Source of the DNA: a virus
IMG/VR virus record: IMGVR_UViG_3300031630_000039
Location: 1-21,806 of that record
Length of the DNA: 21,806 nt
Direction: 5' to 3' (one strand)
The notes below the pieces were generated by a model, which was not told the DNA's origin, did not search any database, and saw nothing but the letters and a program-made list of their open reading frames with translations. Below, piece after piece: positions 11,982 to 20,371 of this stretch (within the stretch, counting starts at the first letter, position 1; the number at the start of each line of letters is the position of its first letter). The translations under genes were made by a program, and so were the position numbers.

Positions 11982-12602
11982 ATGATGGCAACACACACAA
12001 ATAAAGACTCACCTGCTATAATGCATCTTATAAAAGAAGGTACTATAGGTGCTGAAATTGGTATTTGGATGGGTAACACTTCAACACAATTTCTTAAGAA
12101 AGGTCTTAAAAAGTTTTATATGGTTGACGCATATTCAATAGAACCGTATACAAATTCAACAGAAGTAGACTTTCAAATCTATCTTGCAAAATATGCAGCC
12201 ATTACTGGTGAAATTGCACCAGCTGGTTTTCAAAGATACTATGATAGAGTTTATGAAGAAATAAAATCTAGATTTGAAAGCATTAAAGAAACTGTAATAT
12301 GCCGTACAACATCAGACAAATGGTTTGAGCAATTTGATGGTGAAAAATTAGATTGGATTTACGTTGATGGCGATCATTCATACGAAGGTTGTTTAAAAGA
12401 TTTAAATAATGCAATGAAAATAGTTAAACCTGGTGGAAAAATATTAGGTGATGATTATGGTTGGCCAAAAAAAGATGATGACGACGAATCTATATATCAT
12501 AAGCCTGGCGTAACAAAGGCAGTAGATACATTTATAAATAATAATAACTTAACCAAGCACATATTTAGACATGGGCAAACACAATTCGAGATTCGAGTAT
12601 GA
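11982..12602 (+). CDS. Class I SAM methyltransferase (Methyltransf_24 type)
   Basis: A 206-residue Rossmann-fold methyltransferase. Motif I is GAEIGIWMGNTS (23-34), followed by an acidic strand end YMVDAYS (46-52) and IYVDGDHSYEG (126-136), the marker of the Methyltransf_24/TylF-like group that methylates sugar hydroxyls, often using a metal ion. KPGGKILGDDYG follows as the next strand. Set among glycosyltransferases and a sugar nucleotidyltransferase, sugar O-methylation is the likely job. It has two adjacent ATG codons at 11982 and 11985 and no obvious ribosome site. It ends in an ATGA overlap with the RuBisCO-like gene. Confidence 0.83.
   Translation: MMATHTNKDSPAIMHLIKEGTIGAEIGIWMGNTSTQFLKKGLKKFYMVDAYSIEPYTNSTEVDFQIYLAKYAAITGEIAPAGFQRYYDRVYEEIKSRFESIKETVICRTTSDKWFEQFDGEKLDWIYVDGDHSYEGCLKDLNNAMKIVKPGGKILGDDYGWPKKDDDDESIYHKPGVTKAVDTFINNNNLTKHIFRHGQTQFEIRV
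12533..12540 (+). promoter_or_regulatory. Possible T4-late-type promoter box before the RuBisCO-like gene
   Basis: TATAAATA, the exact T4 late -10 box, lies 58 bases upstream of the start at 12599, inside the end of the methyltransferase gene. In AT-rich coding DNA such an octamer can arise by chance, so this is weak. It is listed because of its orientation and distance. Confidence 0.3.
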
Positions 12603-13687
12603 AAAGATACACAGTTACTTACGAAGTAGACGGTCCTGATATTCCAAAAATAGCTCATGAAATTGCTATTGGTCAGAGCATAGGAAATCCTAACATTAGA
12701 TCTGAAATAGAAAATGCTACAAACGTAAAAGAATATATAGCGCAGGTTGTAAGTGTAAAGAAAAATATTGTTACTATAGAGTTTCCTCTTGGTGCATTTG
12801 ATTGGCCAAATATTAATCAATTGATGTGCATTATAATGGGCGGTCATACCGATATTTTAGGTATTGACAAATGCAGAGTAATAGATATAAAAGTTCCAAT
12901 TAAACATACACCACCTGTTTTAGGTATGAGTGGATGGAAGAAAAGATTAGGTGCAGAAAAAAGACCATTATTTGGTGCTATTGTTAAACCTAAGTCTGGT
13001 CTAAATAAAGAACAACTATTATCTTTAGTTAAAGACATGATATACGGTGGCGCTGACTTTATTAAAGAAGATGAGATTATGGCAAATAATTCTTATTTAC
13101 CTTTGGAAACAAGAGTTGAAGCCATTGAGCACTTAAAACAAATATCTGGTTGGAAAGGCTTTTATGCATATTGCATTAATGCAGATCCTTTAGAATTAGT
13201 AGATAACTGTGCTGCAGTAAAGATGGGTAGTAACAGTGAAGCTTCGGTCGGTGGAGTACACATTAATTTTTGGTCAGGTTTAGGTGCTTATACAACTGCA
13301 AGAAAATACAATTTAGCAACACACTATCAAAGATCAGGTATACGTATTTTAACTGATCCAGGTAATAGGTATTCGTTATCTTGGCCAGTTCTAGTAAAAC
13401 TTGGCTGCATGGCAGGCATTGATAGTATGCATGTTGGTATGCTAGGCGGATATTATCCGGAAGGCGAAAGTGAAACAGAAACACTTGAAGCAATTAAGAT
13501 CTGTGCTAAGTATAATGTTATACCGTCATTAAGTTGTGGTATGAATCCTGTACTTGCAAGAGAAATTAAAGAACGAATTGGAAATAATTGGATGGGATCA
13601 GTCGGTGGCTGGTTACATACAGGTGACGGTACTAAAGGTAACACTTTGTACCATAAAGTGAAAGAAATGAGTGAGGCGATGTTATAA
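12599..13687 (+). CDS. RuBisCO-like protein (form IV-type large-subunit homologue)
   Basis: A 362-residue member of the RuBisCO large-subunit superfamily. The N-terminal domain ends with EFPLGAFDWPNINQLMCII and DIKVP (near 61-100), matching the family. The barrel begins with RPLFGAIVKPKSGL, where K130 and K132 equal K175 and K177 of the spinach enzyme. GGADFIKEDE keeps the carbamylated lysine (K156) and the metal ligands D158 and E159. MHVG supplies H278 (H327). PSLSCG keeps S312 and G314 (S379/G381), and SVGGW keeps the phosphate-binding GG. Loop 6 lysine K334 is replaced by Y285, and the SxGT-W and N123 positions are changed. Carboxylase activity is therefore unlikely, and an enolase, isomerase or decarboxylase of a sugar-type substrate is more likely. 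It is shorter than most relatives (about 400-480). ATGA and TAATG overlaps tie it to a methyltransferase and a sugar nucleotidyltransferase. Confidence 0.9.
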   Translation: MKRYTVTYEVDGPDIPKIAHEIAIGQSIGNPNIRSEIENATNVKEYIAQVVSVKKNIVTIEFPLGAFDWPNINQLMCIIMGGHTDILGIDKCRVIDIKVPIKHTPPVLGMSGWKKRLGAEKRPLFGAIVKPKSGLNKEQLLSLVKDMIYGGADFIKEDEIMANNSYLPLETRVEAIEHLKQISGWKGFYAYCINADPLELVDNCAAVKMGSNSEASVGGVHINFWSGLGAYTTARKYNLATHYQRSGIRILTDPGNRYSLSWPVLVKLGCMAGIDSMHVGMLGGYYPEGESETETLEAIKICAKYNVIPSLSCGMNPVLAREIKERIGNNWMGSVGGWLHTGDGTKGNTLYHKVKEMSEAML

Positions 13688-14427
13688 TGAAAGTGATACT
13701 ACCTATGGCTGGAAACGGCCAAAGATTTTTTGATGATGGATATGATTTACCAAAACCTTTAATTGATATTAAAGGAAAGCCAATGTTTAAGCGTGTAGTG
13801 GATAATCTACATCTTAATGGAAACGTACAATTAACTTGCATTGTAAGACAAGATCATGTTGATAATTACGATATTGATAAAAGAATAAAAGAACATTATA
13901 AAGATGCTAATATATTAGTGTCTCCAGGCCCCACAGAAGGAGCTGCATCTACTGTAAGATTAGCAACTTCTATGTTTGGTGGCGAAGCTATGATAGTTGC
14001 AAACTGTGATCAACTTATGGATTGGGATTCTAAAAAGTTTTATAAAATGATTGAACTCAGTTTATATCCTGGTGGACTCATACCAGTTTTTATAACAGAT
14101 CCTAGTCATATTAATCCAATTCACAGTTATTGTGATGTTGATGCTTATGATAATTTACTTCAACTTAGAGAAAAAGAAATAATTAGTAATCTTGCTACAG
14201 TTGGTGTTTATTATTTTGGTGATGAAGTTAAATGGATTAAAGCGCATGAAAAACAAATGGATGCCAATGATAGAACTAATGATGAATTTTACTTAGCGCC
14301 TACATATAACTATTTAGAAGAAAATGTTGGAGTGTTTCGTGTAAAGAAAATGATAGGTATGGGAACTCCAGAAGAATTAAACAATTTAAAAAATAGTGAA
14401 TATTGGGATAAACTTGAGGATTTATAA
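13687..14427 (+). CDS. Sugar nucleotidyltransferase (RmlA/GlmU-like)
   Basis: Joins a sugar phosphate to an NTP to make an activated sugar. The N-terminus carries the signature LPMAGNGQRF (5-14), the G-x-G-x-R-F nucleotide loop, then LPKPLIDIKGKPM (21-33) with the conserved K-P. AMIVANCDQLM (near residue 100) is the metal-binding strand end. It has 246 residues and no C-terminal acyltransferase repeats, so it is a single-domain pyrophosphorylase. It is translationally coupled to the RuBisCO-like gene upstream and to a glycosyltransferase-like gene downstream by TAATG overlaps. This suggests that it activates a sugar used by the island, possibly one made with the RuBisCO-like enzyme. Confidence 0.87.
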   Translation: MKVILPMAGNGQRFFDDGYDLPKPLIDIKGKPMFKRVVDNLHLNGNVQLTCIVRQDHVDNYDIDKRIKEHYKDANILVSPGPTEGAASTVRLATSMFGGEAMIVANCDQLMDWDSKKFYKMIELSLYPGGLIPVFITDPSHINPIHSYCDVDAYDNLLQLREKEIISNLATVGVYYFGDEVKWIKAHEKQMDANDRTNDEFYLAPTYNYLEENVGVFRVKKMIGMGTPEELNNLKNSEYWDKLEDL

Positions 14428-15170
14428 TGAAAATAGCAGTTTGCATTTCTGGCATTGCCAGAGGTAACGTAAAGCATAATATTGGTAGAATAAAAGAAGC
14501 CTTTGGCGATAAAGCAGATATATTTACTGCGTCGTGGAAAGAACATAAAAATGATTACAGCGAACAATACGGCGCTGAATATTATGACGAGCCTACCCTA
14601 CATTACAATTCTTGGAAAGATTGTGTAACTGATAATCCTCATCCAAAATATAAATTATATAAGCAAGCATTCATAAACCAAGATGGTCCTGCATTTTTTT
14701 TAGCTCAACGAAAAAAATTAATGAATGCAACTAAACAACTTATTGCACACGCCTATCAATTACCTAACATACCTCAAGAATATGATATGATTATAAGATT
14801 AAGATGGGATAGTGTAGTGTCTACAAAATTAGATTTTACTAAATACCTAGAACAATCGTATGATGGCAATATGGCTGTAGGATTTGCTATTCGTGGTGGT
14901 AGACATGCAAAGCTTGATATATTTAAAGATATTGATCATGTTTATTGTGATGATAATACTGATCAAATGTGGAGTAGAGATTGGTGTTATTGGCTTAATG
15001 ACAATATGATATTTCATCCTAGGAAACTATATGATTGCGAAAAAGTTTTACAATATCATGAAGAAAAGAAACTGTGGCCTGCTGAATATGGTTGGTATCA
15101 AATGTTAAGTAATGCAGACGACCATCATGGAGTATATGGTGGTGCTGTCATAGAAAAATTCTGGCGATAA
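14427..15170 (+). CDS. Putative glycosyltransferase-like protein
   Basis: A 247-residue protein that opens with KIAVCISGIARGN and DIFTASW (2-14, 31-37), a start shared by a group of viral and bacterial proteins of glycosyltransferase type. YDMIIRLRWDS (118-128), with its R-x-R-W-D pattern, is the strand and acidic residue typical of that group. DWCYWLNDNMIFHP in the C-terminal third is a likely acceptor-site segment. No standard DxD is present, so the activity is inferred from pattern and neighbourhood. It is coupled to the nucleotidyltransferase by a TAATG overlap and followed after one base by a reduced methyltransferase-like gene. Confidence 0.65.
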   Translation: MKIAVCISGIARGNVKHNIGRIKEAFGDKADIFTASWKEHKNDYSEQYGAEYYDEPTLHYNSWKDCVTDNPHPKYKLYKQAFINQDGPAFFLAQRKKLMNATKQLIAHAYQLPNIPQEYDMIIRLRWDSVVSTKLDFTKYLEQSYDGNMAVGFAIRGGRHAKLDIFKDIDHVYCDDNTDQMWSRDWCYWLNDNMIFHPRKLYDCEKVLQYHEEKKLWPAEYGWYQMLSNADDHHGVYGGAVIEKFWR

Positions 15171-15171
15171 C

Positions 15172-15585
15172 ATGCTCTCTACGTTAATGCAAAGGTATAA
15201 GTCAAACCGACAAAAGCATGCTTTGTTCTATGAAAAAGAATTATTTGAACATCGCAATAAACCTTTAAACATATTACAAATTGGAATTGGTACGAGTATA
15301 TCAGTCTGGCACAAATATTTGTCTTATTCGAATATCTATTGTATCGACGAATTCAACAATTTACAACCTAATAAATACAAATACCTGGAAGAGAAAAGAA
15401 TATTCTGGTCAAGGTGCGATATAAACGATCAAAAAAGTATTAATGATGTTATGATAAATACATGGAATAAACCTAGATTTAATTTTATAATAGACAACGA
15501 AACATCTAGATATCAATATTTAAGAAGATATTGTATTGGAAAATACTATATCGAAACCAGTGACGGCGTAGAGGTAAAGAAATGA
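15172..15585 (+). CDS. Shortened methyltransferase-like protein, paralogue of the one at 19572
   Basis: A 137-residue protein whose parts line up with the methyltransferase at 19572: M-L-S/Q-x-L start, NILQIGIGTSISVWHKYL (33-50) against NILEVGILHGESIRAWLEY, IYCID (55-59) against IYAID, and FNFIIDNETS (103-112) against FDFIIDDGQH. The histidine of the second motif is replaced, and the protein ends soon after, lacking roughly 60 C-terminal residues. It is either a decayed methyltransferase kept as a binding protein or a reduced functional form. It is open throughout with normal spacing and an ATGA overlap with the next gene, which argues against a plain pseudogene. Confidence 0.68.
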   Translation: MLSTLMQRYKSNRQKHALFYEKELFEHRNKPLNILQIGIGTSISVWHKYLSYSNIYCIDEFNNLQPNKYKYLEEKRIFWSRCDINDQKSINDVMINTWNKPRFNFIIDNETSRYQYLRRYCIGKYYIETSDGVEVKK

Positions 15586-16280
15586 AAGCATTTGCAATAG
15601 TTGTACCAGATAATAAAATATCAATGTCTGGATTTAATGAACTTAAAGAAAGCTATGAGAAATACGGTTATGAAGACGGTATTGAAATGCATGAAGCAAT
15701 TGAACTTAATAAAGTAGAAGGATACTGTGGTGGTAATGGATTAGTTTGGAATTATCCATGGGAAGGCCAACACTTAGATATGAAAAGTGGTATGTTGAAG
15801 TCTGCATATCAAACTACAGATAAAAGAAAGCGTATGTCATGTTTTTTAAGTCATTGGTATTTGTGGCGAAAATGCCAAAATCTTAATGAAACTATATTAA
15901 TTCTTGAACACGATTCAAGGTTAATAAAAAGATTACCAGCAGACAGCACATTTGAGAAATCTAATTTCGATATCATAGGAATAAACGATCCATCGATGGC
16001 TACTAGAAAATCTAAAATATATCATGATAAAATCTTAGAAAAAATTGATTTCTTTCAACAAGTTCCAAGGATTGACGAATACAATATTCCACAAGGATTA
16101 GCTGGCAATTCGGCATATGTAATAAAACCAGCTGGCGCAGAACAAATGGTTAATTTGACACAAGAATACGGTATGTGGCCAAACGACGCGTTAATGTGTT
16201 ATCAATTAGTTCCTAAGCTTGGAGTAACACGTAATTTCTACACAAGAATACAAGGATTGAGGTCAACAACAACACTATGA
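15582..16280 (+). CDS. Glycosyltransferase family 25 protein, copy 1
   Basis: A 232-residue GT25-type sugar transferase, the family of LPS galactosyltransferases. The family landmarks are SCFLSHWYLWRKC (near 86-98), ILILEHDSRL (near 106-115), whose E-H-D is the family's ExD-type metal site, and GLAGNSAYVIKPAGAEQM (near 173-190). It is followed with an ATGA overlap by a second GT25 gene with the same landmarks, so the pair arose by duplication or joint acquisition. The acceptor is unknown, but LPS-like or virion glycans are the usual targets. Confidence 0.85.
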   Translation: MKAFAIVVPDNKISMSGFNELKESYEKYGYEDGIEMHEAIELNKVEGYCGGNGLVWNYPWEGQHLDMKSGMLKSAYQTTDKRKRMSCFLSHWYLWRKCQNLNETILILEHDSRLIKRLPADSTFEKSNFDIIGINDPSMATRKSKIYHDKILEKIDFFQQVPRIDEYNIPQGLAGNSAYVIKPAGAEQMVNLTQEYGMWPNDALMCYQLVPKLGVTRNFYTRIQGLRSTTTL

Positions 16281-20171: not shown

Positions 20172-20179
20172 TATAAATA
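20172..20179 (+). promoter_or_regulatory. T4-late-type promoter box
   Basis: An exact TATAAATA lies in non-coding DNA. T4 late transcription starts about six bases after this box, which would place the first base near 20185, four bases before the first stem of the riboswitch. The fit to a transcript that begins with the riboswitch makes chance less likely. Confidence 0.6.
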
Positions 20180-20188
20180 ATGTTATAA

Positions 20189-20260
20189 CGTTCACCCGTA
20201 AGGGCGGAAGTAAGCAATCGCTGAAGGAACGCACTCTAACCAATAACTAGGGGAGGGTGA
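20189..20260 (+). promoter_or_regulatory. Glutamine riboswitch (glnA / Downstream-peptide type)
   Basis: The RNA reads CGUUCACCC, then GGGCGGAAGUAAGC, then GCUGAAGGAACGC, the conserved words I recall for the glutamine aptamers of marine cyanobacteria and their phages. The outer stem CGUUC (20189-20193) pairs with GAACG (20227-20231). Inside are CCC-GUAA-GGG (20195-20204) and AGC-AAUC-GCU (20213-20222), giving a three-way junction. UCACCC (20192-20197) can instead pair with GGGUGA (20255-20260) in the ribosome site of the next gene, so glutamine could switch translation on or off. A 35-codon gene follows, exactly the context that named the Downstream-peptide motif. Confidence 0.82.
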
Positions 20261-20263
20261 CTC

Positions 20264-20371
20264 ATGACTTACACATACAGACCATTTCAATGGAAGATGT
20301 TTGTTCGAGCTCGTAGACGCGCTTTAGTTCATAAGATACTGAACTATCGTTTGCAACTGCGTATAGCTTAA
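20264..20371 (+). CDS. 35-residue arginine-rich peptide under the glutamine riboswitch
   Basis: The ATG at 20264 follows a very strong purine-rich ribosome site (GGGGAGGGTGA) and opens 35 codons. The peptide begins MTYTYRPFQWKM, has a core VRARRRALVHKILNYRLQLR, and carries eight arginines and no acidic residue. Short ORFs are the normal partner of this riboswitch class. Basic peptides controlled by glutamine riboswitches in cyanobacteria include the glutamine synthetase inactivating factors, and the arginine-rich helix here is loosely like them. That link is inference only. Its stop overlaps the stop of the opposing gene. Confidence 0.72.
   Translation: MTYTYRPFQWKMFVRARRRALVHKILNYRLQLRIA

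Follow-up and report, generated by a model that had tools for sequence, protein, structure and literature searches.

A glutamine aptamer linked to a micropeptide gene behind a putative late promoter in a T4-like phage contig

Introduction

Which gene does a glutamine riboswitch serve when it is carried by a phage, and may it tie that gene to the nitrogen status of the host? To our knowledge, riboswitches are seldom seen in phages, and the marine cases described so far have been noted without a clear target. The locus that raises this question lies near the end of a stretch of 21,806 nucleotides from a marine phage (IMG/VR record IMGVR_UViG_3300031630_000039), the whole of which is called the window in the following. 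A first-pass annotation had read about 200 bases of it as a single compact unit, made up of a late promoter, a glutamine riboswitch and a 35-codon gene. The box and the aptamer class are each of a known kind. The organisation that joins late promoter, glutamine aptamer and micropeptide appears to be new: it has not been found in the literature surveyed, outside of which lay supplementary files and most subscription journals, so that earlier notice is possible.

Glutamine Aptamer and Micropeptide Gene

The features of the locus are collected in Table 1. An Rfam scan of the whole window has returned a single match at gathering threshold, the glutamine (glnA, type 1) aptamer RF01739, which is recovered at full length (model positions 1–53) with 58.1 bits and an E-value of 1.1e-10 against a gathering score of 35. 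The aptamer proposed from the conserved words of the sequence has thereby been confirmed with the glnA covariance model, whereas the Downstream-peptide model RF01704, which had been suggested as a further check, gave no match in the window at its gathering score. The P1, P2 and P3 helices also appear when the predicted transcript is folded, and, by analogy with its class, the aptamer would be expected to respond to glutamine.

Table 1. Positions of the elements of the cassette in the window.
Feature	Position	Strand	Details and basis
T4-late-type promoter box TATAAATA (putative)	20172..20179	+	Exact match; predicted start about 20185
Glutamine aptamer (RF01739)	20187..20235	+	P1 20189–20193/20227–20231, P2 20195–20197/20202–20204, P3 20213–20215/20220–20222
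Anti-Shine-Dalgarno strand CACUCU (predicted)	20232..20237	+	Directly 3' of P1; MFE pairing, covariation
Shine-Dalgarno region GGGGAGGGUG	20250..20259	+	Occluded by the predicted helix
Micropeptide gene, 35 aa, net positive, TYRP[FY]QWK family	20264..20371	+	Translation, family alignment, pN/pS

The 35-codon reading frame downstream of the aptamer encodes MTYTYRPFQWKMFVRARRRALVHKILNYRLQLRIA, which has no match in Pfam, PHROG or the PDB sequences. Purifying selection acts on its codons (pN/pS 0.34, 91 pairs), the alignment of the peptide family contains 13 invariant columns, and AlphaFold2 predicts a single helix over residues 7–34 with a mean pLDDT of 83. A scan that used the degenerate codons of the window peptide, and in which the RNA played no part, has returned 21 stretches; the match in L286 has been discarded as spurious, which leaves 20 further viral loci. 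The gene is conserved as coding, and the earlier view of it as a real gene has been borne out.

Conservation of the Cassette

All 20 loci found by their peptide alone carry the aptamer, the TAAATA box and the ribosome-site helix as well. Each of 14 such records scored with RF01739 exceeds the cut-off and contains a single copy. Two of the 20 (L287 and L291) have the identical unit with the same neighbours as the window; otherwise, the gene neighbourhoods vary between groups of relatives, and the unit therefore has the character of a cassette. The parts first described as one compact unit are linked, and this linkage is kept in several gene neighbourhoods.

A wider sample has been drawn by an aptamer pattern scan of viral contigs, which yielded at least 120 stretches; the pattern biases this sample, which may include some bacterial contigs. 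Among the matches listed, the gene that follows a viral aptamer is nearly always a tiny basic open reading frame with a median length of 37 aa, the mean net charge of the peptides outside the YRG type being about +6. These downstream peptides belong to many sequence families, one of which is the YRG type (DUF4278-like, with one sub-threshold Pfam match). A common ancestry of the window family (A1) with the W..C[YF] families (A2) is not supported, as the hhalign score of 12.3 falls within the range of shuffled profiles. Tandem glutamine aptamers stand before micropeptides in the viral contigs L010, L014, L026, L046, L057, L073, L077 and L081.

The Putative Late-Promoter Box

The exact TATAAATA box noted in the first reading is present, but its density in the AT-rich window is at chance level (6 found vs. 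5.2 expected), so that the box by itself is no evidence. The T4 late box occupies −13 to −6 (PMC1524935), and this spacing puts the predicted start at 20185 and the beginning of the first stem, C20189, 4 nt further on, in agreement with the distance estimated before. It is solely through its comparative position that the box points to a putative T4-type late promoter. Among the matches listed, 50 of 105 distinct viral loci have TAAATA before the aptamer at a distance of 9–18 nt, mostly 11–14 nt, and about half are without a box at that position; anywhere within the 40-nt upstream regions it occurs in 58 of 110 viral loci among the matches listed, as compared with about 8 expected from a composition shuffle. 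In bacterial loci it has been seen anywhere in the 40 nt in 20 of 125 cases, and its position is not locked. Sorted by peptide type, viral loci among the matches listed carry the box in 3/27 cases for YRG and in 42/72 for other small peptides. Many viral loci show the form CTAAATA, which has been reported as a late-promoter form in phage Aeh1 (PMC1524935).

An intrinsic terminator lies just upstream in 18 of the 50 boxed loci (0.2 expected), and the cassette is therefore often insulated; in the window, none has been found upstream of it. A homologue of the late sigma factor gp55, 61% identical to that of C48C1, is encoded in the relative G001, the window itself being a fragment of 21.8 kb. A TAAATA before the G001 capsid gene has been dropped as support for a late box, since it sits right against the ribosome site. 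Judged from the box, the transcript would be made late in infection.

The Likely Expression Platform

In the predicted transcript fold (MFE −24.8 kcal/mol), a hairpin comes immediately after the aptamer, its stem formed by CACUCU and AGGGUG (20254–20259) and extended by CC 20240–20241 with GG 20250–20251. For 41 peptide clusters, with one member drawn per cluster and the mean reported, full complementarity between the first five bases after P1 and the ribosome-site region has been found in 29.1 clusters, compared with 15.3 ± 2.3 (maximum 22) when the partners were shuffled. Both sides of the helix vary (CACCT/GGGTG, CACTT/AAGTG, CATCT/AGATG, CAATC/GATTG), and bacterial, mostly cyanobacterial, loci have CGCCT/AGGCG at the same place. 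The anti-Shine-Dalgarno complementarity covaries across unrelated peptide families, and the CACUCU/AGGGUG helix is the likely expression platform.

P1 and the anti-Shine-Dalgarno helix are adjacent, have no nucleotides in common and coexist in the MFE structure, which makes an OFF switch or weak switching possible. Directly 3' of P1, a C is found in 104 of 105 distinct viral loci among the matches listed; the 32 loci that lack the helix all have it too. Since it is kept there as well, this first base after P1 is probably part of the aptamer, and the C(A) may form a hinge that aptamer and helix share. With the CA blocked, the helix is weakened from a mean of −7.1 to −4.6 kcal/mol, but the predicted accessibility of the Shine-Dalgarno region does not rise (0.40 to 0.41).

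The first-pass annotation had placed the switch elsewhere: in the glutamine-free state, the aptamer strand UCACCC (20192–20197) would pair with GGGUGA (20255–20260) over the ribosome site. The two strings are indeed complementary, and CACCC and GGGTG are kept by almost every member of the window peptide's family. However, the forced pairing reaches only −20.4 kcal/mol, 4.4 kcal/mol worse than the MFE, and is incompatible with the aptamer, which is lost. Both strands are near-invariant in their own family, so that no covariation backs the pairing; other families have no excess complementarity of the aptamer 5' strand to the ribosome site (3.5 vs. 2.8 shuffled, 41 peptide clusters), and the relative L078 does not have the CACCC form of the aptamer. 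On grounds of energy and covariation this switch has been rejected, and we consider it extremely improbable.

Phage Affinity and Host

With 74% identity, the window's UvsX protein comes closest to that of Phage C48C1, all others being below 60%. For the G001 capsid protein, the identities are 66% with C48C1, 62% with Melnitz and about 60% with DLP6 and pelagiphages. The relatives look like SAR11/OM43 myophages and less like cyanophages. A Photo_RC gene has not been found in 14 related records or fragments, the largest of 98 kb. A cyanophage origin is unsupported, and these affinities, together with the absence of Photo_RC, favour a heterotrophic host of the SAR11/OM43 kind over a cyanobacterium. 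No aptamer has been found in C48C1, the nearest phage by UvsX.

Elsewhere on this T4-like contig, the gene at 12599–13687 (+) encodes a RuBisCO-large-chain-like protein (PF00016, E 9e-23), whose nearest models are of type III, with scores far below the cut-offs, and for which tblastn gave no match in the phage collection. The protein keeps GGADFIKEDE and KPKSGL; the aligned loop-6 stretch, GMLGGYYPEG, is without lysine, and the product is therefore probably a RuBisCO-like protein. It is adjoined by genes for a sugar nucleotidyltransferase and a family-25 glycosyltransferase (13687–16280, +), perhaps a surface-sugar or modification cassette.

Proposed Mechanism and Alternatives

Taking these elements together, one may postulate a self-contained cassette in which a late promoter, a 5' glutamine aptamer and anti-Shine-Dalgarno control of a basic peptide are combined and glutamine turns expression ON, a reading that we hold to be probable, with some reserve. 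A T4-type late promoter would start a short transcript that has the glutamine aptamer as its very 5' end, and CACUCU, just 3' of the closing stem, would pair with AGGGUG and hold down translation of the 35-aa basic, presumably helical peptide. Glutamine binding would stabilise the aptamer, engage the shared conserved C(A) and most likely weaken the anti-Shine-Dalgarno helix, which would switch translation ON. The target of the peptide would probably be a host protein, plausibly one of nitrogen assimilation, and the phage would sense nitrogen status late in infection. The ON sign is proposed by analogy with the cyanobacterial glutamine riboswitches, which are activated by glutamine and control glutamine synthetase (GS) inactivating factors (PMC6316151).

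The same cassette might work with the opposite sign, in that glutamine stabilises P1, the anti-Shine-Dalgarno helix stacks on it and translation is turned OFF, so that depletion of glutamine would allow the peptide to be made. The adjacency of the two helices, which coexist in the MFE structure without shared nucleotides, would suit such an OFF switch, as would the proteobacterial relatives, in which the aptamer precedes glutamine synthetase and ammonium-transporter-like genes and repression by glutamine is sensible; yet the helix is placed as in the cyanobacterial loci with CGCCT/AGGCG, whose riboswitch class reportedly activates (PMC6316151), and we regard the OFF sign as plausible but rather unlikely. 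A smaller chance still is given to transcription from a host-type or upstream promoter in place of a T4-late one. The box starts 6 nt past a methyltransferase stop, TATAAATA is at chance in the window, and half of the viral loci among the matches listed have no box, all of which would agree with such a promoter; it is opposed by the box position, which is locked in viral and not in bacterial loci, by the frequent upstream terminators, and by the search for a sigma-70-like pair at the window promoter site, which found none. Finally, the aptamer could be a decaying leader derived from the host, or independent of the peptide, the small reading frame being incidental. Although the tiny size of the peptide and its lack of a database match would agree with this, the pN/pS of 0.34, the 20/20 linkage, the placement of the anti-Shine-Dalgarno strand on this very reading frame and the full conservation of the aptamer make the idea hardly credible.

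With the glutamine-ON cassette as the preferred reading, a recurrent design emerges, in SAR11/OM43-type phages and beyond, in which micropeptides, most of them unannotated, are joined to transcription late in infection and to the sensing of glutamine; each aptamer gains a concrete candidate gene and platform. The recurrence of the layout with many micropeptides in marine phages suggests that a small protein is commonly tied to host nitrogen status; if this is confirmed, viruses adjust the amount of a peptide to nitrogen status while infecting abundant ocean bacteria. As a speculation that we rate as doubtful, marine T4-like phages might share a modular cassette whose exchangeable basic peptides are unrecognised inhibitors or adaptors of host nitrogen assimilation, gated by a glutamine threshold during virion production.

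Comparison With Known Systems

The glutamine riboswitch class has been called restricted to cyanobacteria in a review (PMC6316151). Genomes of the SAR11/SAR116/SAR86 type (L125, L127, L149, L156, L177 and similar) contain glutamine aptamers, single or in tandem, ahead of genes for glutamine synthetase or ammonium-transporter-like proteins, as far as the gene names can be judged from sequence. A close parallel to the window is found in the cyanobacterial gifB leader (RF01739), which has the same aptamer and an anti-Shine-Dalgarno strand directly 3' of P1 that faces a small gene's ribosome site. Unlike this leader, the window unit is phage-encoded and would lie at the very start of a transcript predicted to be late, and its peptide matches neither IF7 nor Pfam DUF4278. 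Phage peptides and the GS inactivating factors (IF7/IF17) are alike in their small size and their richness in arginine and lysine, and by analogy the former may work like the latter. Homology of the phage peptides to IF7-type factors has been rejected, since the best of them reaches 5.3 bits with a profile of 9 IF7-type proteins and shuffled sequences reach 9.2; profile-profile comparison of phage peptides with these factors gave no signal either.

An aptamer before a short reading frame is also the layout of the Downstream-peptide (type 2) glutamine riboswitch RF01704 (PMC2864571), which is a different RNA family. The glnA elements of the cyanophages S-CREM1 and DSL-LC02 likewise place a glutamine-riboswitch-like element before a short reading frame, that of S-CREM1 scoring 33.5 bits and thus below the RF01739 cut-off; their peptides are of the YRG (DUF4278-like) type, unlike that of the window.

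The riboswitch of methylophage Melnitz has been published as controlling tmRNA (PMC9004378). Its aptamer (52.8 bits with RF01739) overlaps the 3' end of the annotated tmRNA gene, and directly downstream, behind CACUUAACC...GGGGAGAGUG, we have observed an unannotated basic reading frame of 32 aa, MTLYQQWCYLKAQKEYRRRQKILMYFRIRLKG, close to those of L031 and L090. The record annotates an opposite-strand 33-aa reading frame instead (L302 1501–1665, MZ577097.1 about 46400–46564). With the window, Melnitz shares the aptamer, the likely platform, here CACUUAACC/GGGGAGAGUG, and the basic downstream reading frame; it differs in that no TAAATA box stands at the expected place, the unit follows a tmRNA gene and the peptide is of another family. 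From the sequence, we would reinterpret the Melnitz "tmRNA riboswitch" as acting on the 32-aa reading frame, which is a simpler reading than tmRNA control. The SAR11 phage isolate Mosig (Pelagibacter host HTCC1062) comes with a window-like layout and a different peptide, of the RPRAKKNLFTDDPRMQGI type: a divergent aptamer (50.0 bits) has ATAAATA upstream and ribosome-site complementarity, and is followed by a basic hypothetical protein of 51 aa (L314 526–765, MT647606.1).
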